A stretch of 64,000 nucleotides of DNA from contig NZ_JALKBD010000001.1 in NCBI RefSeq assembly GCF_023015905.1, forward strand, positions 62,001 through 126,000, written 5' to 3'. The notes beneath the pieces are model-generated. The model searched no databases, had not been told where the DNA came from, and was given only the letters and a program-made list of their open reading frames with translations. The position numbers were made by a program, and so were the translations under genes. Positions 19,616-55,747 of the stretch are shown here, in pieces; positions within the stretch are counted from its first letter, which is position 1, and every line of letters starts with the position of its first letter. Source of the DNA: Arenibacter sp. F20364. Lineage in GTDB: Bacteria > Bacteroidota > Bacteroidia > Flavobacteriales > Flavobacteriaceae.

Positions 19616-20500
19616 ATGGATTTAAAGATCGATGAAGCCTGGGAAGAAATGATTAACAGACTGGCGTCTTGGGTAGACAGTTTAATAGTGAATTTACCCA
19701 ATATTATTTTGGCTCTGCTTGTATTCACCATCGTGATTATACTTTCCAAATACTTTACCAAACTTACTTGGAAACTATTGGAGAAAAGTAGTTTACAAAA
19801 ATCCATGAAGAATTTAATTGCCAAGTTAATATCAGTATTGGTAATTCTGACGGGATTATTTTTAGTTCTAGGAATCTTGGACCTGAGTAAAACTTTAAAT
19901 ACAATTCTTGCCGGCGCAGGGGTGGCGGGACTGGCTGTAGGTCTAGCCTTGCAGGGTGCCCTGGCCAATACCTATTCTGGAATAGTGTTGTCATATATCA
20001 AGCACATAAAATTTGGGGATTGGATAGAGAGCAACAGTTATGAAGGGGAGGTGATCGATATAGATCTAAGGGCGGTAACCATAAAACAATCGGACAACAA
20101 TTTGGTTTATATTCCGAACAAATTGGTTTTGGAAAACCCAATCAGAAATTTTTCCACTACGTCCCAATCACGGGTTATCCTTACCTGTGGTGTTGGTTAT
20201 TCCTCCAATTTGGAATTTGTACGAGACTTGGTATGCAGGACTATTGCGTCTAATTTTGATAATGTTGAAAATAGCAAGGAAGTTATTTTTCTTTATACCG
20301 AATTTGGGGATAGCTCTATTAATTTTGAAACTCGATTTTGGATTCAATCCACCTCGGCCATAGAGGTACTAAGGGCCAAGACAATTGCCATGATCGCCAT
20401 AAAAAAAGCCTTTGACGAAAACGATATTAATATTCCATTCCCTATACGAACATTGGATTTTCCTGAAAATTTTAAGCTCAACAACAACACAAACAACTGA
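19616..20500 (+). CDS. Small-conductance mechanosensitive channel, MscS family
   Basis: A 294-residue inner-membrane channel that opens under membrane tension to release solutes during osmotic downshock. Three helices are visible: about 27-47, 70-90 and the pore-lining TM3 (about 97-126) with the Ala/Gly-rich pattern 'GAGVAGLAVGLALQGALAN'. The beta domain follows ('FGDWIESNSYEGEVIDIDLR' about 138-157), then the C-terminal alpha/beta cage. Length is normal. ATG at 19616 gives a proper amphipathic N-terminal helix. It opens the run of osmotic and envelope-stress-type genes that follows. Confidence 0.93.
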   Translation: MDLKIDEAWEEMINRLASWVDSLIVNLPNIILALLVFTIVIILSKYFTKLTWKLLEKSSLQKSMKNLIAKLISVLVILTGLFLVLGILDLSKTLNTILAGAGVAGLAVGLALQGALANTYSGIVLSYIKHIKFGDWIESNSYEGEVIDIDLRAVTIKQSDNNLVYIPNKLVLENPIRNFSTTSQSRVILTCGVGYSSNLEFVRDLVCRTIASNFDNVENSKEVIFLYTEFGDSSINFETRFWIQSTSAIEVLRAKTIAMIAIKKAFDENDINIPFPIRTLDFPENFKLNNNTNN

Positions 20501-47148: not shown

Positions 47149-47320
47149 CAGCTAATTATTCTGCCATAAAGATACGATTTGCCATGTCTACAACAAATAT
47201 AGAAATCCGGTATTTAGAAAGCATTCCCCCTATTTCCATTATCTCATATGGAAACATACACAAACCCATATCATATAAATTAAGCTTCACCCAAAACTTT
47301 GAAATTGACTAGAAAAACCA

Positions 47321-47328
47321 TACTTTTG
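47321..47328 (+). promoter_or_regulatory. -7 element TACTTTTG for the MerR/CarH-like gene
   Basis: TACTTTTG matches TAnnTTTG. It lies 22 bases before the ATG at 47350, leaving a very short leader. The left arm of the dyad at 47327 overlaps its last two bases, so binding there would block transcription. Confidence 0.5.
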
Positions 47329-47356
47329 TTTAACTTTTTATTTAAATTGATGAACA
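47327..47356. promoter_or_regulatory. Dyad A, degenerate, at the regulator's own start
   Basis: TGTTTAAC (47327-47334), 14 bases, then GATGAACA (47349-47356), which matches GTTAAACA at 6 of 8 positions. It spans the -7 box and the ATG. Architecture is the same as the two sites at 48427 and 52581, which suggests autorepression. Confidence 0.5.
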
Positions 47357-48249
47357 ACGTTAAAAGTAACTTCAGCATCAAAGACCTTGAAAATCTTTCA
47401 GGTATTAAGGCGCACACTATTAGAATATGGGAAAAGCGCTATAATCTTTTTCAACCAAATAGAACGGACACCAACATAAGATGTTACAATATAGAGAACC
47501 TTCAAAAACTACTTAACGTAACTTTTCTCTATAACAACGGCTATAAAATTTCCAAAATATCGCAGTTAGGCGAGGAAAAAATCCCCATGGTAGTAAGGGA
47601 TTTAGTTTCTGAACAAAGCAACAACGGACATGTTTTGAATTCCTTTAAAATGTCCATGATGAATTTTGACCAGAGCCAATTCTTTAAGACTTACAATTCC
47701 CTATTAAAAGAAAAATCCTTCAGGGAAATCTTCTATGAAGATTTTATCCCTTTATTAACGGAATTGGGGCTACTATGGCAAACAGATACAATAACACCCT
47801 CCCATGAACATTTTATTTGCGCCCTGATTAAGCAAAAGATTTTGGTAAATACAGAAAAGTTGCAATTCAGTACGCCTACCAATGCCTCCAAAACCTTTGT
47901 CCTATATCTTCCAGACAACGAAATACATGAATTGGGGCTAATGTTTCTCAATTATGAAATCCTCTCAAAAGGGTATCAAGCTATTTTTCTTGGACAAAGC
48001 ATCCCTATTTTTAGCTTAAAGGATTTAGTGCCATTATATGACAATATTGTATTTGTTTCCTATTTTACTGTACAACCGGACAAAGACAACATTATGGCCT
48101 ATCTAGAAGATTTTCATGATTTGCTGCTGAAGGACAGTACTTCCGAGCTTTGGATATTAGGAAAAATGCTTGAAGAAATTAATCAAAAAGATTTGCCCAA
48201 AACTATTATTGGTTTTTCCCAAATAGATCATTTGGTCCAAAAACTTTAA
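47350..48249 (+). CDS. MerR-family, CarH/LitR-like B12-binding regulator
   Basis: A 299-residue regulator. Residues 8-72 are a MerR-type winged helix ('FSIKDLENLSGIKAHTIR', 'WEKRY'). The C-terminal half has a helical bundle with Trp143-x9-Glu153-His154, and a B12-binding-type fold with Glu191-x-His193-x-x-Gly196, the positions used in CarH to hold adenosylcobalamin and sense light. CarH binds as a tetramer in the dark and lets go in the light. The family's usual DxHxxG is ExHxxG here. I start at ATG 47350, since the 47299 TTG start would include the promoter. Two operons follow, with the same dyad upstream. Confidence 0.82.
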   Translation: MNNVKSNFSIKDLENLSGIKAHTIRIWEKRYNLFQPNRTDTNIRCYNIENLQKLLNVTFLYNNGYKISKISQLGEEKIPMVVRDLVSEQSNNGHVLNSFKMSMMNFDQSQFFKTYNSLLKEKSFREIFYEDFIPLLTELGLLWQTDTITPSHEHFICALIKQKILVNTEKLQFSTPTNASKTFVLYLPDNEIHELGLMFLNYEILSKGYQAIFLGQSIPIFSLKDLVPLYDNIVFVSYFTVQPDKDNIMAYLEDFHDLLLKDSTSELWILGKMLEEINQKDLPKTIIGFSQIDHLVQKL

Positions 48250-48426
48250 TTTAAAAAAGCTTTAACGAATTTAAATATTCTACAAGCTTCATCCATGTAA
48301 ATTATTCTTAGAAGCAGTTTGGATAGAAATCCCTATACCATAATTGTGCTACAGGGACTTGCTAACTACGCCCGTAAAGATTCTTGGGCATTTAAAAGGT
48401 CCCTTCCCTAAAACCAAGTTAAATTT

Positions 48427-48456
48427 TGTTTAATATTATATTTAAAACGTTAAACA
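48427..48456. promoter_or_regulatory. Dyad B upstream of the TetR operon
   Basis: TGTTTAAT (48427-48434), 14 bases, then GTTAAACA (48449-48456). It is followed by TTTTGTATCTTG, aligned base for base with the site C downstream sequence except for small changes. It lies 31 bases before the TetR start and overlaps the likely -33 to -7 region, so a repressor would block the promoter. Confidence 0.65.
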
Positions 48457-48487
48457 TTTTGTATCTTGTGCCATACAATTGATAGTC

Positions 48488-49144
48488 ATGGCAAAAAAGA
48501 AAACAATTTCAGAAAACGACATTATTTCATCTTATATGGATTATGTCCTTGAACATAACGAAAACCCAAAATCGGTTTATGCCTTTGCAAAAGCCAACAA
48601 CTTTGAAGAATCAAAATTCTATGCATTTTTCGGCTCTTTTGAGGCTATCGAAAAACACATTTTCAAAGCTTTTTTTAACAATACCGTTTCCATTTTGGAA
48701 AAAAGTGAGGATTACAAATCCTTCGATGCCCGAAATAAATTATTGAGCTTTTACTTTACCTTTTTCGAAAATTTAACTGCCAATAGAAGTTATGTAATAT
48801 ATGCACTGCATCAGCATAAAAATGGCCTCAAAGGACTAACACTGCTATCAGAACTTAAAATTGGCTTCACCTCCTATATAGAGGATCTGGATATTGAAAC
48901 TTTGGATATTAAACAAGAGCAAGTAGACAAAATTCAACGTCGAGCCTTGCAAGAATCGGCCTGGCTGCAATTGTTATTGACCATTAAATTCTGGATTGAC
49001 GACACCTCAGCTGCCTTTGAAAAGACCGATATCTTTATAGAGAAATCTGTCAACACTAGTTTTGATATTTTAAATATCGCGCCTCTTAAAAGTGTGCTCG
49101 ACTTTGGAAAATTCATATTCAAGGAAAAAATGCACACTAAATAA
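48488..49144 (+). CDS. TetR-family transcriptional regulator
   Basis: A 218-residue protein from ATG 48488. The N-terminal helix-turn-helix region is 'ISENDIISSYMDYVLEHNEN' and 'SVYAFAKANNFEESKFYAFF' with 'FGSFEAIEKHIFKAFF', the typical TetR three-helix layout although with changes in the recognition helix. The C-terminal part is helical and could bind a ligand. It is the first gene of an operon with an ABC1-kinase, flavin reductase and SDR, directly downstream of the dyad. A local second regulator under the photoreceptor is plausible. The next gene starts 9 bases on. Confidence 0.78.
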   Translation: MAKKKTISENDIISSYMDYVLEHNENPKSVYAFAKANNFEESKFYAFFGSFEAIEKHIFKAFFNNTVSILEKSEDYKSFDARNKLLSFYFTFFENLTANRSYVIYALHQHKNGLKGLTLLSELKIGFTSYIEDLDIETLDIKQEQVDKIQRRALQESAWLQLLLTIKFWIDDTSAAFEKTDIFIEKSVNTSFDILNIAPLKSVLDFGKFIFKEKMHTK

Positions 49145-49153
49145 AACCTGTAG

Positions 49154-50464
49154 ATGAAAACAATCGACAATATACCTGTTTCAAAAATACATCGTGCCTC
49201 AAAATTAGTATCCACGGGCGCTCGCGTTGGGGTTAATTATCTTAAATACTACGGGGACAAATTCACTAAAACTGAGCTTGAAGCCCGAACCCGGCTTAAC
49301 GAGAGCAACGCTGAAGATATTTATGACAGCCTTAAACAGCTAAAGGGAAGTGCTCTAAAAGTGGCTCAAATGCTGAGTATGGAAAAAAGCATAATGCCAC
49401 AGGCCTATGTGGAAAAATTTTCCTTGGCCCAGTTTTCGGTACCCCCTTTGTCGCCCCCTTTGGTGCTTAAAACTTTTAAAGATTATTTTGGCAAGCTGCC
49501 AAATGAATTATTTGATTCCTTCAACACAACTTCAGTAAACGCTGCCAGCATTGGCCAAGTCCATGAAGCAGCAAAATATGGGAAAAAACTTGCTGTGAAA
49601 ATCCAATATCCTGGAGTTGCCGAGAGTATAGCCTCCGACTTGGCCCTAGTTAAACCTATTGCTATTAAAATGTTTAACATTAAAGGCAAAGATTCGGACA
49701 AGTATTTTAAGGAAGTTGAAGGAAAGTTAATAGAGGAAACAAATTATGTGCTGGAAATGGAACAGAGCAAGGAAATTGCTGATGCCTGCTCATACATTCC
49801 CAACCTTTTGTTTCCTCAATATTACGAAGAATTATCCTCTGACCGTATTATTACCATGGACTTTATGCAAGGTGAACACCTTTCAGAGTTTACAGCCTAT
49901 AATACCGACCAGGAGAAAGCCAATCAATTGGGACAGGCATTATGGGACTTTTATATGTTCCAAATACATAAGTTGAGAAAAGTACATGCCGACCCACACC
50001 CAGGAAATTTCCTAGTATCCAAGGAAAGTAAATTGATTGCCTTGGATTTTGGCTGTATGAAAATTATTCCGAATGAATTTTATATCCCTTATTTTGAGCT
50101 GGCCAAACCAGAAAATATTACCGACCACAAATTCTTTGTATCCAAATTATACGAATTGGAAATTTTACGCAAAGACGATACCAAAGAAGAAATCACATTC
50201 TTCACGGAGATGTTCCATGAACTGCTAAGCCTGTTCACCCAACCGTTTCATGTAGAAAATTTCGACTTTTCAGATGGTGATTTTTTTGGGAAAATTACGG
50301 AATTGGGACAACGATATTCGAAGAATACCGAATTACGAAAAATGAATGGCAATAGAGGGTCCAAACATTTCATATATATTAATCGGACATTTTTTGGTCT
50401 GTACAACCTTATGTTCGATTTAAAGGCCAGCAACATTAAGATCAATAATTTTAATCATTTGTAA
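49154..50464 (+). CDS. ABC1/AarF (UbiB) family atypical kinase
   Basis: A 436-residue ABC1-kinase-like protein. The family pieces are 'LKGSALKVAQMLSM' (KxGQ-like region, here KVAQ), 'VNAASIGQVHEA' (nucleotide loop), 'VKIQYPG', 'HADPHPGNFLV' (catalytic loop) and 'ALDFGCMKII'. ABC1 proteins control ubiquinone or other isoprenoid and lipid metabolism, and in plants photo-oxidative stress. Quinone handling here is inferred. It ends by a one-base TAATG overlap with the flavin reductase gene, so translation is coupled. Confidence 0.88.
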   Translation: MKTIDNIPVSKIHRASKLVSTGARVGVNYLKYYGDKFTKTELEARTRLNESNAEDIYDSLKQLKGSALKVAQMLSMEKSIMPQAYVEKFSLAQFSVPPLSPPLVLKTFKDYFGKLPNELFDSFNTTSVNAASIGQVHEAAKYGKKLAVKIQYPGVAESIASDLALVKPIAIKMFNIKGKDSDKYFKEVEGKLIEETNYVLEMEQSKEIADACSYIPNLLFPQYYEELSSDRIITMDFMQGEHLSEFTAYNTDQEKANQLGQALWDFYMFQIHKLRKVHADPHPGNFLVSKESKLIALDFGCMKIIPNEFYIPYFELAKPENITDHKFFVSKLYELEILRKDDTKEEITFFTEMFHELLSLFTQPFHVENFDFSDGDFFGKITELGQRYSKNTELRKMNGNRGSKHFIYINRTFFGLYNLMFDLKASNIKINNFNHL

Positions 50465-51099
50465 TGACACATTTTGACCAACGGGACTTTCAAAAAATGG
50501 ATCGTTTATTCAGAATTAACCTCATCAATAGTTGTTCTGGATACAAATCCGCAAATCTGGTTGGCACCAAATCCCCTGAAGGCGTTTCCAATTTGGCCGT
50601 GTTTAGTTCGGTTACACATATCGGTTCCGATCCGGCCCTTTTGGGACTTATTTTTAGGCCTACCACTGTGGTCAGAAATACCTACAACAATATCAAAAAA
50701 ACTGGGTCGTTTACCCTAAATCAAATTCATGAGCCTGTGCTGGAGGATGCCCATCATACCTCAGCCAAATACGCAGCTAATATTTCAGAATTTGATGCAA
50801 CAAACTTGGAGGAGGATTACAGGAAAAATTTTCCAGCGCCTTTTGTTAAGGCATCGCCCCTTAAAATAGCAATGGGCTATCTTGAAGAGTATTCTTTAAA
50901 GGCGAACAATACCATACTCATGATCGGAGAAATTAAGCATCTGTTCGTAGATGACCAGTTACTTCAAAAGGACGGTTTCCTTAATTTATCTAAAGCAAAA
51001 ATTGCGACCATTAACGGACTTGACGGATACGCCATACCAAATTTAAAAACTAGGTTGGCATACCAAAGACCAAAAAATACATCTCAAAACACTGTATAA
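50464..51099 (+). CDS. Flavin reductase-like FMN-binding protein
   Basis: A 211-residue split-barrel flavin-binding protein. It shows 'NLAVFSSVTHIGSDPALLGL' (about 42-61) and 'GLIFRPTTVVRNTYNNIKKT' pattern of the flavin-reductase-like (DIM6/NTAB) family, in which such barrels bind FMN and pass electrons to a partner. The partner is not known. It overlaps the AarF stop by one base and is followed by an SDR gene after one base. The whole operon is thus translated as one tight unit under the dyad-controlled promoter. Confidence 0.85.
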   Translation: MTHFDQRDFQKMDRLFRINLINSCSGYKSANLVGTKSPEGVSNLAVFSSVTHIGSDPALLGLIFRPTTVVRNTYNNIKKTGSFTLNQIHEPVLEDAHHTSAKYAANISEFDATNLEEDYRKNFPAPFVKASPLKIAMGYLEEYSLKANNTILMIGEIKHLFVDDQLLQKDGFLNLSKAKIATINGLDGYAIPNLKTRLAYQRPKNTSQNTV

Positions 51100-51100
51100 T

Positions 51101-52525
51101 ATGAAAATTCTCGTTACCGGCGCCACTGGCTATATTGGAAAAAGATTGATTCCAATATTAAGCAACGAAGGTCATGATGTGGTCTGCGCTGTAAGGGATA
51201 AGTTGAGGGCGGACAAAAACTATCTTGATGATGAACATATAAGTGTTGTCGAGGCAGATTTTTTAAAACCTGAAACACTAATTAATATACCTAAAGACAT
51301 TGATGTTGCGTATTATTTAATCCACTCCATGTCCAATTCTTCCAGTAATTTTGAACGTTTGGAAGCAGCTTGTGCTGCCAATTTCAAGGCCTACTTTGCA
51401 AATACCCAATTAAAGCAAGTTATTTATTTAAGTGGTATTACCAACGAAAAACAACTTTCTAAACATTTGCAGTCCAGAAAAAATGTGGAAGAAATTTTGT
51501 CTGCAGATACGTACGCACTTACAGTTTTTAAGGCAGGAATTATTGTAGGATCAGGAAGTTCTTCTTTTGAAATTATTAGGGACCTAGTAGAAAAATTGCC
51601 GGTAATGGTAGCCCCAAAATGGCTAAATACCAAAACACAACCATTGGCGGTAAGGGATGTATTGGCCTTTTTATCACGGGCAAAAGGAAGAAAAGAACTT
51701 TACAACACCTCATATGACATTTTTGGTCCAGAAATTTTGACCTATAAGCAAATGCTTTTGGAGTTTGCAAAAGCAAGGGGATTAAAACGCTATATTTTAA
51801 CAGTTCCTGTCATGACGCCAAAACTTTCTTCATATTGGCTTTATTTTGTAACCTCCACCTCATACAAATTGGCTACAGCACTAGTTGATAGCATGGGTGT
51901 GCAGATTGTTGGGAAACCCAGCAATATCAACCAATTATTAGAGGTGAACCCCATAACCTACAAAGAGGCTGTGGAATTGGCTTTTGAAAAAATTGAGCAG
52001 AACAGTATTGTATCCAGTTGGAAAGACTCCATGGTGAGCAGTGGTCGTCTAAAGAATAGTTTACACAAATATGTTAATGTTCCCAAATACGGATGTTTTA
52101 AAGATTATAAAGAGCGTAAAGTCGAAAATGAGCAGGTAACCATTAGCAAGATTTGGTCTATTGGAGGTACAACGGGATGGTACTACGGGAACTTTCTATG
52201 GAAAACAAGAGGATATCTGGACAAGTTGGTCGGCGGGATAGGACTACGCAGGGGAAGAACCCATATTTCCGAATTGGACGCAGGCGACGCCCTAGATTTT
52301 TGGCGAGTTATTTTCAGTGATAAAAAAGAAAAAAAGCTACTGCTATATGCCGAAATGAAGCTCCCAGGAGAAGCTTGGCTCGAATTTAAGATTGAAGACG
52401 GGCTCCTTAAACAAACTGCAACCTTTAGGCCACGAGGACTTGCTGGAAGATTGTATTGGTACAGCGTATATCCATTTCATGGCATTATCTTCAATGGGCT
52501 GATCAATAAATTGGTCGCCGATTAG
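51101..52525 (+). CDS. SDR (NmrA-like) fused to DUF2867
   Basis: A 474-residue protein. The N-terminal part (1-290) is an extended SDR with the Rossmann loop 'TGATGYIGKRL' (6-16) and 'YLIHSMSNSS', binding NAD(P). The C-terminal part (about 320-474) is a DUF2867 domain, with 'GGTTGWYYGNFLWKTRGYLD' and 'FRPRGLAGRLYWYSVYPFHG' (the START-like lipid-binding pattern). The combination is widespread and uncharacterised; a role in modifying lipids or isoprenoids would fit the neighbouring ABC1 kinase. Starts 1 base after the flavin reductase. Confidence 0.88.
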   Translation: MKILVTGATGYIGKRLIPILSNEGHDVVCAVRDKLRADKNYLDDEHISVVEADFLKPETLINIPKDIDVAYYLIHSMSNSSSNFERLEAACAANFKAYFANTQLKQVIYLSGITNEKQLSKHLQSRKNVEEILSADTYALTVFKAGIIVGSGSSSFEIIRDLVEKLPVMVAPKWLNTKTQPLAVRDVLAFLSRAKGRKELYNTSYDIFGPEILTYKQMLLEFAKARGLKRYILTVPVMTPKLSSYWLYFVTSTSYKLATALVDSMGVQIVGKPSNINQLLEVNPITYKEAVELAFEKIEQNSIVSSWKDSMVSSGRLKNSLHKYVNVPKYGCFKDYKERKVENEQVTISKIWSIGGTTGWYYGNFLWKTRGYLDKLVGGIGLRRGRTHISELDAGDALDFWRVIFSDKKEKKLLLYAEMKLPGEAWLEFKIEDGLLKQTATFRPRGLAGRLYWYSVYPFHGIIFNGLINKLVAD

Positions 52526-52580
52526 ACTTTTTTTTACATAGTTATAGCCTATAACGTCATAAGAAAATAGAATCCAATTA

Positions 52581-52610
52581 TGTTTAACTTTTTTTTAAAA
52601 TAGTTAAACA
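52581..52610. promoter_or_regulatory. Dyad C upstream of the FolE operon, perfect form
   Basis: TGTTTAAC (52581-52588), 14 bases, then GTTAAACA (52603-52610): a perfect 8-bp inverted repeat. It ends 5 bases before the -7 element, so it covers the -33 region. Followed by TTATGTATATTTG, parallel to the TTTTGTATCTTG after dyad B. Confidence 0.7.
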
Positions 52611-52615
52611 TTATG

Positions 52616-52623
52616 TATATTTG
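52616..52623 (+). promoter_or_regulatory. -7 element TATATTTG for the FolE operon
   Basis: TATATTTG fits TAnnTTTG and lies 19 bases before the ATG at 52643, close behind dyad C. A repressor on the dyad would keep polymerase off. Confidence 0.6.
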
Positions 52624-52642: not shown

Positions 52643-53074
52643 ATGATATTAGAGACTTCACATAGCAATAAAGATGATTCCTTACTTATTAATGATTTGG
52701 TAGGGAAGCCTTTTGGCCTATTAAAGACTATTCAACTCAAAGGAGTAGGTTCTTCAAGAATGATCATCGAAGAAGCTAGTCCAAATATGAAGTCCTTTTT
52801 AAATACCACCTTCGACGCCACCTATGCCAATATAGAACTGCGCCCCTTTGGAATACTATTAAGAATACTTAACGGACTAAGAAATTTTACATGGGTAATC
52901 CCCTATTATCAATTGGTTATTTACAAAAGCAACTGCAGTAGTATTTATGCACAAGGCCGCTTTATCCACTTTAGGGAGGATCATTATTTTAAAAATAATA
53001 AATCCTTCCTTAGAAAGCTTTTAAGACTTAAAGCAAAATATGAGACCAAATATCAATTTTTGAATTTCAAATGA
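52643..53074 (+). CDS. Hypothetical protein, first gene of the FolE operon
   Basis: A 143-residue basic, mixed alpha/beta protein without signal or clear membrane segment: 'LLINDLVGKPFGLLKTIQLK' (about 15-34), 'YANIELRPFGILLRILNGLR', 'IYAQGRFIHFREDHYF' and a Lys/Arg-rich C-terminus. I recognise no family. Overlap of 4 bases (ATGA) with the TIGR03643 gene shows translational coupling, so it probably belongs to the same function. Position directly after dyad C makes it a member of the putative light regulon. Confidence 0.7.
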   Translation: MILETSHSNKDDSLLINDLVGKPFGLLKTIQLKGVGSSRMIIEEASPNMKSFLNTTFDATYANIELRPFGILLRILNGLRNFTWVIPYYQLVIYKSNCSSIYAQGRFIHFREDHYFKNNKSFLRKLLRLKAKYETKYQFLNFK

Positions 53075-53343
53075 ATTTAAGCGAAAGGGATATAGACAGA
53101 ATTATTGAAATGGCTTGGGAAGACAGGACTCCCTTTGAAGCTATTACGTATCAGTTTTCAATTTCCGAAACAGAAGTTATAAAACTCATGCGAAAAGAAA
53201 TGAAGCCCAGAAGTTTTAAAATGTGGCGTATACGAGTTAAAGGAAGGACTACCAAACACCAACAACTAAGAACCTTTGAAAAAGGGCGCTTTAAATGCTC
53301 TAGACAAAAACAGATAACGAATAATTCAATTTCAAAACGATAA
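53071..53343 (+). CDS. TIGR03643 family protein
   Basis: A 90-residue basic protein: 'SERDIDRIIEMAWEDRTPFE' (4-23), 'SISETEVIKLMRKEMKPRSF', 'WRIRVKGRTTKH'. This helix-turn-helix-like small family is known to travel with cryptochrome/photolyase genes in many bacteria; its role is unknown, with DNA binding or partner function being plausible. It overlaps the preceding gene by 4 bases. The C-terminal about 20 residues are low-complexity and basic. No photolyase gene is next to it here, which is noteworthy. Confidence 0.85.
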   Translation: MNLSERDIDRIIEMAWEDRTPFEAITYQFSISETEVIKLMRKEMKPRSFKMWRIRVKGRTTKHQQLRTFEKGRFKCSRQKQITNNSISKR

Positions 53344-53397: not shown

Positions 53398-54096
53398 ATG
53401 AACACAGAGACCTTAGCTTTAAAAAATAAAAATGACCACAAGTTAAATGGTTTTTCCCATACGGATATTGGAGACGACCATTTGTATACGGGATTGGAAA
53501 CTCCAATGAAACCTGACGCTTTCAAAATTTCAGACACCGAGAAAAAACAACGTATTGCCCTACTTTTTCAAGAAATTATGGATGTCATGGGCTTGGATCT
53601 AACCGATGATTCCTTAAAAGGTACTCCGGAACGGGTTGCCAAAATGTATATCGATGAAATTTTCTCTGGATTAAATCCGGCCAACAAACCGAAGATTGCA
53701 TTATTCGACAACAAATATCGATATAATCAAATGTTGGTGGAGAAGAACATTACCTTCTACTCCAATTGCGAACATCATTTTGTACCGATAATTGGTAAAG
53801 CCCATCTAGCATATATCTCTTCGGGCAAAGTTATTGGATTATCCAAGCTGAACAGAATTGTTCAGTACTATGCAAAGCGCCCACAAGTGCAGGAACGCCT
53901 TACCAATCAAATCGCCGATGATTTGAAGAGTATTTTGGGGACTGAAAACGTTGCCGTCATCATCGATGCCAAACATTTATGTGTCTCTTCCAGAGGTATT
54001 AGAGATGAATCCTCCGCAACGGTAACCTCCTATTATGGAGGAAAATTCAATACTCCATCAAAAATAGCAGAATTACAAAACTATCTTAAAAATTAA
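53398..54096 (+). CDS. folE: GTP cyclohydrolase I
   Basis: A 232-residue enzyme making 7,8-dihydroneopterin triphosphate from GTP, the first step of folate and pterin synthesis. Zinc-binding Cys and His are in 'NCEHHFVPIIGKAH' and 'HLCVSSRGI', with 'GTPERVAKMYIDEIFSGL' and 'GLSKLNRIV' as family blocks. The first about 50 residues are an extra extension ('MNTETLALKNKNDHKLNG'). Placed in a dyad-controlled operon away from folP, it may be a light-induced copy supplying pterin for a photolyase antenna or for other cofactors. Such placement is known in LitR regulons. Confidence 0.95.
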   Translation: MNTETLALKNKNDHKLNGFSHTDIGDDHLYTGLETPMKPDAFKISDTEKKQRIALLFQEIMDVMGLDLTDDSLKGTPERVAKMYIDEIFSGLNPANKPKIALFDNKYRYNQMLVEKNITFYSNCEHHFVPIIGKAHLAYISSGKVIGLSKLNRIVQYYAKRPQVQERLTNQIADDLKSILGTENVAVIIDAKHLCVSSRGIRDESSATVTSYYGGKFNTPSKIAELQNYLKN

Positions 54097-54100
54097 AATT

Positions 54101-54331
54101 ATGGACCTCATTAACGAAGCATTAGAATTTGAACAAAGAAAACTAAGATCGCTTTCTACAAGCGATAGAATTGAAATTTCAAGAAAAGCAAAATCCTTGA
54201 TCTTGGGTTTGAACGAAATTTATAAGCGTAAGAAAGATGATAAAATTATGGACATCATGAAACGCTTGACCGTTATAAAACGAAAAGTAGAAAAAAGATT
54301 AAAGGGTAAACACTTGACAACAAACGCATAA
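54101..54331 (+). CDS. Hypothetical small helical protein
   Basis: A 76-residue, highly charged, almost entirely helical protein: 'LEFEQRKLRSLSTSDRIEIS', then a Lys/Arg-rich second half 'YKRKKDDKIMDIMKRLTVIK' and 'VEKRLKGKH'. No signal or membrane segment, no recognised family. The start is 4 bases after the folE stop and the next gene is 13 bases on, so it is inside the operon. The positive charge could mean nucleic acid or membrane contact; this is guesswork. Confidence 0.7.
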   Translation: MDLINEALEFEQRKLRSLSTSDRIEISRKAKSLILGLNEIYKRKKDDKIMDIMKRLTVIKRKVEKRLKGKHLTTNA

Positions 54332-54344
54332 GACGGCAAAAAAA

Positions 54345-55028
54345 ATGAAAACAATAGTTGTTATAGGAGGGAGTAAGGGAATAGGGAAGGCTATTGTGAA
54401 CACTTTTTTGGATACACATAAAGTAATCAATATAAGTAGGTCTTCACCAGAAGAAACCCATACTAATTTAACGCATATGGGTTGTGACATTTTAAAGGAT
54501 GAACTCCCTGAAATTGCGGCCATAGATTCGTTGGTATACTGTCCTGGAAGTATCAATTTAAAACCCTTTGGACGTTTAAGCCTGGATGACTTTAGGCAAG
54601 ATTATGAATTAAACGTAATTGGCGCCGTAAAGGCCCTTCAAAAGTATTTGGATGTGCTTAAAAAAGCAGAACGACCTTCGGTCTTACTCTTTAGTACGGT
54701 GGCTTCCAAACTAGGTATGCCCTACCATGCCAGTATTGCAGCTGCAAAATGCGGAGTGGAAGGTTTGGTAAAATCCCTTGGTGCAGAATTGGCGCCATCC
54801 CTTCGGATTAACGCTATAGCACCCACTGTTACAGATACCCAATTGGCTTCAAAGCTTTTACGAAATGATAAGATGATCGAAAATATTAAAGAGCGTCATC
54901 CATTAAAAAAATTCCTAAACCCTAAAGAAGTTGCGGAAATGGCCGAATTTTTATTGTCGGAAAAAGCATCCTCGATCTCAGGGCAAATATTTGAAATGGA
55001 TTGTGGAATTGTAAGCTTTAAAATTTAA
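54345..55028 (+). CDS. Short-chain dehydrogenase/reductase
   Basis: A 227-residue SDR: 'VIGGSKGIGKAIV' (6-18) as nucleotide loop, 'LVYCPGSINLKPFG' in place of the NNAG block, and the 'FSTVASKLGMPYHASIAAAK' catalytic stretch with Ser, Tyr (PYHAS) and Lys about 141-145. The end is 'SISGQIFEMDCGI'. Substrate unknown; pterin-reducing SDRs occur, and the neighbouring folE makes a pterin reductase an option. It is between the small protein and the glutathione peroxidase gene, with gaps of 13 and 3 bases. Confidence 0.85.
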   Translation: MKTIVVIGGSKGIGKAIVNTFLDTHKVINISRSSPEETHTNLTHMGCDILKDELPEIAAIDSLVYCPGSINLKPFGRLSLDDFRQDYELNVIGAVKALQKYLDVLKKAERPSVLLFSTVASKLGMPYHASIAAAKCGVEGLVKSLGAELAPSLRINAIAPTVTDTQLASKLLRNDKMIENIKERHPLKKFLNPKEVAEMAEFLLSEKASSISGQIFEMDCGIVSFKI

Positions 55029-55031
55029 TTC

Positions 55032-55574
55032 ATGAACCCCTTAAAAATATTTGCCGCAACCCTATTCTCCAATTCCAAATCCAAAGTCAAGATGGATTTG
55101 CAATTGCTCTATGACATTGAAATAAATAGCTTAGGCGGTGTGCCCATAAGTTTGAAAGACTTTGAAGGAAAGCATATTCTATTTGTAAATGTGGCTTCCA
55201 AATGTCGCTTTACCCCCCAATACCAAAAGTTACAGGAACTTCATGAAACATATAAGGATAAGCTTGTGGTCATTGGATTGCCATGCAATCAATTTGGGGG
55301 GCAAGAACCAGGCAGCGCAGAAGAAATTGAATCTTTTTGTGAAGTGAACTATGGGGTAAAATTCCTAATAACCGAAAAAATCGATATCAAAGGTCAAAAT
55401 CAGCATCCTTTATACAAATGGCTTACCCACAAAGGCTTTAACGGCCTAAAAAGTTCGTCGGTAAAATGGAATTTTCAAAAATATCTTGTGGACGCCAAGG
55501 GAAATTTGGTCGATTACTTCTTTTCCAATACTAGTCCCCTGAGTTCTAAAATAACAAAACACCTAAAAGATTAG
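55032..55574 (+). CDS. Glutathione peroxidase-family thiol peroxidase
   Basis: A 180-residue Cys-type GPx. The peroxidatic residue is Cys58 in 'NVASKCRFTPQY', and the tetrad is completed by Gln91 in 'NQFGGQEPG', Trp146 and Asn147 in 'VKWNFQKYL'. A second Cys85 lies in 'LPCNQFG' and Cys103 could resolve. These enzymes normally use thioredoxin and reduce lipid and other peroxides. It has an extension of about 20 residues at the N-terminus ('MNPLKIFAATLFSNSKSK') that might be a weak signal or anchor. It adds oxidative defence to the operon. Confidence 0.92.
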   Translation: MNPLKIFAATLFSNSKSKVKMDLQLLYDIEINSLGGVPISLKDFEGKHILFVNVASKCRFTPQYQKLQELHETYKDKLVVIGLPCNQFGGQEPGSAEEIESFCEVNYGVKFLITEKIDIKGQNQHPLYKWLTHKGFNGLKSSSVKWNFQKYLVDAKGNLVDYFFSNTSPLSSKITKHLKD

Positions 55575-55576
55575 TC

Positions 55577-55747
55577 ATGTTCGGAATATTCAAAAAAAAA
55601 TCCAAAGTAGAAAAGCTTCAAGAAAAATACAATACCCTTATGAAGGAATGGCATACACTTTCCAGCATTAACAGATCGGAAAGCGATAAAAAATATGCTG
55701 AGGCGCAGGAAGTCTTGGAGGAGCTGGTGGCCCTGCAAAAGAATTAA
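55577..55747 (+). CDS. Lacal_2735 family small protein
   Basis: A 56-residue basic-then-acidic helical protein: 'MFGIFKKKSKVEKLQEKYNT', 'LMKEWHTLSSINRSESDKKY' and 'AEAQEVLEELVALQ'. It has the pattern of the flavobacterial Lacal_2735 family ('MFGLFKKK...LQ.KY..LM.EA..LS..NR..SD.K'), of unknown function. The start is 3 bases after the GPx stop, so it is the last gene of the operon. No terminator with a T-tract follows; a GC-rich hairpin region lies 55 bases on. Confidence 0.8.
   Translation: MFGIFKKKSKVEKLQEKYNTLMKEWHTLSSINRSESDKKYAEAQEVLEELVALQKN

Follow-up and report, generated by a model that had tools for sequence, protein, structure and literature searches.

A palindromic dyad, TGTTTAAC-N14-GTTAAACA, occurs at three promoters in a stretch of 64,000 nucleotides from Arenibacter sp. 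F20364 (NCBI RefSeq assembly GCF_023015905.1, contig NZ_JALKBD010000001.1, positions 62,001 to 126,000 of the forward strand; this whole stretch is called the window below). The dyad is probably the operator of the MerR/CarH-like protein encoded at 47350-48249, which would act as a repressor, controlled by adenosylcobalamin (AdoCbl) and light, of its own gene, of two putative operons (operons 1 and 2), and of fasciclin and DoxX-like genes outside the window. From the analysis as a whole, this reading was given a probability of about 0.78.

Three dyads and their phase with the -7 box

The spacer is constant at 14 bases in all three copies of the consensus, which were listed without a strand. 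Site C (52581-52610) has 0 mismatches and precedes operon 2, site B (48427-48456; TGTTTAAT-N14-GTTAAACA) has 1 mismatch and precedes operon 1, and site A (47327-47356; TGTTTAAC-N14-GATGAACA) has 2 mismatches and lies over the start codon of the regulator gene, in a geometry shared with relatives. The first-pass annotation had proposed dyads at these three places, and all of them were recovered. Putative -7 boxes were assigned on the + strand by sequence reading and alignment, the consensus being TAnnTTTG (PMC9723704; all papers are cited here for excerpts of their text). That of the regulator gene, TACTTTTG at 47321-47328, shares bases with the left arm of site A, and a putative -33 element, TTTG (47298-47301, + strand), was found 19 bases ahead of it by sequence reading and same-genus alignment. 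Site A spans the regulator's -7 box, the ATG (47350) and the sequence up to the first base of codon 3. At sites B and C, the right arm ends 5 bases before the -7 boxes of operon 1 (TATCTTG, 48462-48468) and operon 2 (TATATTTG, 52616-52623). The overlap of site A with the -7 box and the ATG, as well as the agreement of the bases that follow sites B and C, had been pointed out in the same annotation, and both were borne out by the sequence.

When same-genus promoters were aligned (12, 11 and 7 rows), the arms and the -7 box were conspicuously conserved. Footprints were observed at site B (11 aligned promoters) and at site C, and CTTTGAAAT was found at the -33 element in 10 of the 12 aligned regulator upstreams; an altered left arm at merR was seen in loci L031 and L029. 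In L053, other sequence separates the third dyad from its gene, and this locus therefore fails to align there. Around 7654-7895 of L053, 212 bases separate the dyad from the gene start of a 143-amino-acid protein, against 11-33 bases in L051, L052 and L055. The phase with the -7 box was also observed among 80 distinct exact sites, where the exact motif TAnnTTTG starts 5 bases past the arm in 19 of its 22 occurrences (2.55 in shuffles, with all offsets summed). A GTTAAA at 48418-48423, immediately ahead of site B on its left-arm side, is unchanged in 11/11 aligned same-genus promoters and is possibly an extra half-site.

A scan of the window at up to 3 mismatches returned 5 matches, a number not reached by any of 100 dinucleotide shuffles (mean 0.77, maximum 3). 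The two further matches, at 19650 and 20530 (3 mismatches each), resemble noise because this class carries no information in the window's own genome (5.74 Mb, 181 contigs), where 52 matches stood against 101 for the reversed pattern. A scan for sigma-70-type promoters was uninformative here (19 found, 19.1 expected). The dyad qualifies as a real operator-like element.

At up to 1 mismatch, the dyad was found at three places in the own genome, namely site B, site C and C127:65724, which lies 3 bases before the listed start of a DoxX-like gene. The matches with 2 mismatches comprised site A, C127:64801 (ahead of a fasciclin gene) and three more; these last (C127:13222, C127:152046, which is inside an open reading frame (ORF), and C159:89002) look like chance matches. 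The fasciclin and DoxX-like dyads are 0.9 kb apart on a contig other than that of the window. A local, autoregulated regulon of two operons had been proposed earlier; its core idea stood, and its confinement to the locus was lost with the two sites on C127.

Coupling of the dyad to the regulator across genomes

The distribution of the dyad was analyzed in 60 genomes, the own genome included, in which the regulator was called at E 1e-10. These relatives overlap with the footprint loci, and some genomes may be common to the named and unnamed collections. The regulator was present in 45 of the 60 genomes, and the exact form TGTTTAAY-N14-RTTAAACA was found at 72 sites in 36 of the 60, as compared with 2 matches of the reversed control; a dyad scattered at random across the genome, which the first-pass annotation had named as speaking against its proposal, does not fit these counts. 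When the best regulator was of the Ile/Val/Met type (typed by residue 26, see below), the exact site was observed in 35 of 38 genomes; it was observed in 0 of the 7 remaining regulator genomes (six typed Lys or Thr, and G054, not typed) and in 1 of the 15 genomes lacking the regulator (G020, before obg, a gene named by eye). In a phylum sample of 296 genomes, again with the own genome, the exact site was present in 39/65 genomes with the regulator versus 2/231 without it (Fisher p = 8e-29, kinship not corrected for), and the reversed control gave 3 matches in 3 genomes. The element thus tracks the regulator in both collections, which supports the proposed link between the dyad and a MerR/B12-type protein.

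Autoregulation was examined in 166 distinct upstreams of Ile/Val/Met-type regulators. The N14 dyad was found at up to 2 mismatches in 115 of them (shuffles: mean 1.5, maximum 3), and other spacers gave 0-30 upstreams, the 30 belonging to N8. At up to 3 mismatches the threshold is blurred, with 133 upstreams for N14 (9.1 in shuffles), 109 for N15 and 75 for N8. A dyad at the regulator start in most upstreams argues for the control of the regulator by its own product, as had been suggested.

The regulator, its possible half-site code and known systems

The protein (47350-48249, + strand, 299 amino acids) was assigned by Pfam, PDB and AlphaFold2 as a MerR-type regulator with a B12-binding, CarH/LitR-like C-terminal part. 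Pfam matched MerR_1 (3.3e-12), the winged-helix domain also found in CarH and class I LitR, and B12-binding_2, and the best solved chains were 3whp ("probable transcriptional regulator", E 5.6e-12) and 5c8d (CarH, E 6.8e-12). The AlphaFold2 model, made from 27 sequences, has a mean predicted local distance difference test (pLDDT) score of 89.2 and the order MerR domain, helical bundle and alpha/beta domain, these names having been assigned from the order of helices and strands. Both cobalamin motifs are kept: W-x9-EH, with W143 and E153 invariant and H154 in at least 90% of the 27 sequences, and ExHxxG with the lower axial His (E191-x-H193), with E191 invariant and H193 in at least 90%. A cobalamin adenosyltransferase is encoded in the own genome.

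In its MerR part, its helical cobalamin part with W-x9-EH, its lower-ligand motif ExHxxG and the TnnACA of its half-site, the system resembles CarH of Thermus thermophilus and Bacillus megaterium (class I LitR). In contrast to the inverted repeat with N14 found here, the characterised CarH operators consist of 3-4 tandem 11-bp direct repeats (PMC9304148, PMC8156234), and His132 of CarH is replaced by Gln. A third half-site at 11 or 22 bp seemed suggestive by eye in site C; it was ruled out, since, of 160 cases (80 sites, both strands), only 1 has TnnACA at a distance of 11 bases before the right arm, and no third motif was found in the composition of the spacer. Class II LitR proteins (PplR1 of Pseudomonas putida, PmlR2 of P. 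mendocina) recognize T(G/A)TACA-N12-TGTA(C/T)A and are said to be unlikely to bind B12, PmlR2 being the effector of a LOV protein (PMC9758184). They share with the present system an inverted repeat with TnnACA arms and a light-inducible regulon including FolE and photolyase, and differ from it in having 12 bases between the TnnACA hexamers (TGTACA-N12-TGTACA), where 18 are found here. From sequence, the system appears to work like a CarH/LitR regulon with an operator of different build, because the direct repeats are absent and the hexamer spacing differs.

Two flavobacterial systems are of interest for comparison. In Flavobacteriaceae strain GF1, a MerR/B12 gene lies upstream of crt genes, beside phytoene dehydrogenase, and an operator is not mentioned in the excerpt of that paper (PMC6974559); in the GF1 locus (L206), the regulator adjoins phytoene dehydrogenase and the sole core dyad (up to 1 mismatch) is inside the regulator gene. 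Chryseobacterium lacus is another flavobacterial member with light-induced crt genes, for which the regulator was only guessed and, in the excerpt, no operator was named (PMC7064467). In the partial texts covered on CarH/LitR and on flavobacterial light regulation, no description of this dyad operator, nor of any operator of a light regulator in flavobacteria, was found, which is no proof of absence.

The own genome carries a second regulator (C138), 33% identical to that of the window and of the Lys type, the window regulator being of the Ile type. At its locus (G000:C138:213000-232900, L079), the regulator gene is divergent from a fasciclin gene, with crtB and crtZ on the fasciclin strand (both named by eye from translations) and a photolyase gene adjoining. 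Three dyads with an N15 spacer were found in the intergenic region, with the arms TGTCTAAT/CTTAGACA, TGTCCAAT/TTTAGACA and TGTTTAAC/ATTAGACA; they are recognisable in 13 aligned rows, with some arms not intact. The third dyad is mixed, its left arm matching the type of the window regulator, which suggests that the two regulators may not be fully insulated from each other. In the 60 genomes, TGTCTAAY-N15-RTTAGACA at up to 1 mismatch gave 23 matches in 15 genomes (10 in the control), of which 19 adjoin a Lys-type regulator gene, and TGTATAAY-N14-RTTATACA gave 7 sites in 5 genomes (1 in the control).

To read the half-site beside each of 194 regulators, a scan was performed in which the two bases after TGT were free, the opposite arm was complementary and the spacer ranged from N6 to N23. 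Dyads were found almost exclusively at N14 and N15. The base before ACA was A beside all 58 Ile/Val/Met regulators with a dyad (167 examined), G beside all 10 Lys regulators with a dyad (15 examined; one dyad at N16) and T beside all 3 Thr regulators with a dyad (6 examined); no dyad was found beside any of the 6 Ala-type regulators. The base before ACA thus follows the regulator subfamily and residue 26, with TTAAACA for Ile/Val/Met, TTAGACA for Lys and TTATACA for Thr. In the AlphaFold2 model, residue 26 is within the second helix (residues 21-31), which we take to be the MerR recognition helix. A tree of 88 of the 194 regulators gave a single origin of the Lys group. The Thr rows with dyads grouped in one clade, from which a sixth Thr row, lacking a dyad, was separate. 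A-type sites are retained in a Val lineage adjacent to the Lys group and in an Ile lineage close to the Thr clade. With only two switches on the tree, these cases are too few to prove residue 26 causal. A wider proposal can be made tentatively, at somewhat less than even odds: the cobalamin photoreceptors of Bacteroidota may read a true palindrome in an assembly with two-fold symmetry, in contrast to the head-to-tail tetramer of CarH, residue 26 may select the base before ACA (A for Ile/Val/Met, G for Lys, T for Thr), and two paralogues may thereby keep separate light regulons.

Candidate target genes, proposed mechanism and alternatives

From gene spacing and strand, we infer that the genes behind sites B and C form two operons, all on the + strand. 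Operon 1 would comprise a TetR_C_23 protein (48488-49144; Pfam), an ABC1/UbiB-type atypical kinase (49154-50464; Pfam, NCBIfam), a flavin-reductase-like protein (50464-51099; Pfam) and an NAD(P)-binding SDR with DUF2867 (51101-52525; Pfam). Operon 2 would comprise a 143-amino-acid protein without a Pfam family at E 0.001 (52643-53074), a DUF2805/TIGR03643 protein (53071-53343; Pfam, NCBIfam), GTP cyclohydrolase I FolE (53398-54096; Pfam, NCBIfam), an SDR-family oxidoreductase (54345-55028; Pfam) and a glutathione-peroxidase-like protein (55032-55574; Pfam). Two small ORFs were noticed by eye in operon 2, at its end (55577-55747) and within it (54101-54331, without a Pfam match). The 143-amino-acid protein is a candidate light-response protein and a recurrent neighbour of the dyad in relatives, where its homologs follow both TTAAACA and TTATACA dyads.

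The genes behind 69 exact sites (63 TTAAACA, 6 TTATACA; window excluded), all outside ORFs by the rule applied, were surveyed in the examined loci, and a gene start was found within 60 bases of 61 of them. Near the TTAAACA form were TetR_C_23 (14), fasciclin (9), the 143-amino-acid family (9), crtI (5), ECF sigma (3, two of them one gene with two sites), a 165-amino-acid family (3) and, once each, FolE, SDR2, DUF2867-SDR, TspO, desaturase-like, DoxX, CIA30, aldehyde dehydrogenase and sugar-lactone oxidase genes; five were unplaced, including that before obg in G020 and one beside a photolyase gene starting 103 bases off. Near the TTATACA form were the 143-amino-acid family (2), the 165-amino-acid family (2) and, once each, crtI, the regulator itself, photolyase, pterin synthase and an unplaced site. 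The genes behind the dyad thus include crtI, fasciclin, FolE and others related to light or oxidative stress. Within the limit of 60 bases, photolyase has a single site, which belongs to the Thr (TTATACA) type; the nearest of the Ile type is 103 bases away. In the named loci, crtI adjoins the regulator in 78 of 80, and five hold photolyase, FolE, SDR2 and DUF2867-SDR as well, so that the gene set of the window recurs, rearranged, together with carotenoid and photolyase genes. The expectation of dyads before photolyase, carotenoid and pterin genes, raised by the first-pass annotation, therefore held in relatives for crtI and FolE and, within 60 bases, for photolyase in the Thr type only; in the own genome it did not quite hold. 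There, a crtI-crtB-crtZ cluster is found at G000:C109:47904-49349 (L334, L342), with no dyad in the 237 bases upstream of crtI, up to the contig end, and the photolyase gene adjoins the paralogous regulator, not that of the window. Four metagenome-assembled genome records titled Rhizobium, Nitrotoga, Bifidobacterium and Klebsiella (L243, L251, L253, L259) carry merR loci of flavobacterial type, followed by crtI in 3/4; they are probably misbinned contigs or wrong labels.

The sites, their constant spacer and phase with the -7 box, their conservation and their link to the regulator subfamily were observed directly; binding, repression and the parts of B12 and light are what we infer for the following mechanism. 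In the dark, the protein, loaded with AdoCbl by analogy, would occupy the dyad, either as a dimer with two-fold symmetry or as half of a tetramer. At its own gene this would mask the -7 box and the ATG, at the two operons the sequence ahead of the -7 box, and RNA polymerase would thereby be kept away. Cleavage of the cobalt-carbon bond by light would then free the dyad of the protein, and the FolE/SDR/peroxidase and TetR_C/ABC1/SDR operons, together with the distant fasciclin and DoxX-like genes, would be expressed against photo-oxidative stress.

Several observations weigh against this reading. Genomes and regulators are related by descent, and the counts are therefore not independent; 26 of the 65 phylum genomes with the regulator have no exact site, and 51 of the 166 upstreams have no N14 site at 2 mismatches. 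Among 80 named loci, 26 have a core dyad (up to 1 mismatch) near the regulator, 4 of these being intragenic, that of GF1 included. In L031, a locus of the same genus, the left arm at the merR start is lost. For the right arm of site A, conservation is confounded by the coding sequence that it overlaps; in 102 of the 133 upstreams matched at up to 3 mismatches, this arm reads ATGAACA, which consists of the start codon, an Asn codon and a single further base. On the protein side, Pfam B12-binding (the Rossmann part) did not reach E 0.001 in the window regulator, and with NCBIfam CarH it scored 63.6 bits, the cut-off being 400; the protein is not filed as a CarH equivalog. The position of His132, which belongs to the bis-His light state of TtCarH, is Gln in the window regulator; across the 194 regulators of the fetched loci, among them that of the window, it is His in none (Q 142, G 15, L 12, others 25). 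The low CarH score and the missing His favour the view that the MerR-type protein binds the dyad and senses cobalamin or another ligand as a metabolic signal, not light; H132A TtCarH was mostly tetrameric after light, which also favours it, although an earlier report of disassembly differs (PMC10442372). This view seems unlikely to us, given the carotenoid, photolyase and FolE neighbours in relatives, the light induction of FolE and photolyase under LitR in Pseudomonas (PMC9758184), and the variation at this position among other cobalamin photoreceptors, which also lack the His, one having Gln (PMC11796333). It is still less probable that the protein is an activator at these promoters. Classical MerR activators act just upstream of the -7 box, where the right arm lies in operons 1 and 2; a dyad that covers both the -7 box and the ATG of the regulator gene fits repression better, and PmlR2 is a repressor, as its authors state for many LitR/CarH members (PMC9758184).

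The TetR_C_23 protein of operon 1 might instead bind the dyad and autoregulate its operon, with the MerR-type gene as a bystander. TetR proteins bind palindromes, and TetR_C_23 genes stand behind the dyad in many genomes. Against this, no TetR N-terminal domain was matched in the window's protein, exact dyads are present in 8 genomes without TetR_C_23 at E 1e-6 (G004, G006, G020, G028, G035, G036, G038, G049), G040 and G053 have TetR_C_23 with neither a regulator found nor a dyad, and the five genomes with the TGTATAAY form gave no match to TetR_C_23; with such a mismatch in distribution, TetR_C_23 was rejected as the dyad binder and is very improbable. Hardly any weight is left for the idea that the dyad is a terminator, another RNA structure or AT-rich sequence arisen by chance. 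In its favour, the arms are rich in A and T, and matches with up to 3 mismatches are noise; the fixed spacing and the excess of exact sites over the control contradict this explanation, as do the phylum and upstream counts. The RNA structure was rejected because the -7 box follows sites B and C, which would thus not be transcribed from these promoters.

Flavobacteria are common in sunlit water. With an operator fixed across much of the phylum, the light regulon becomes predictable from sequence. The operator points to an unusual code for a known class of photoreceptor, its inverted repeat and subfamily-linked half-site base going beyond what the first-pass annotation had described. With the three pairings of base and residue, the way in which a MerR helix reads DNA can readily be tested; if AdoCbl is indeed the sensor, these pairings would also give separable light switches.

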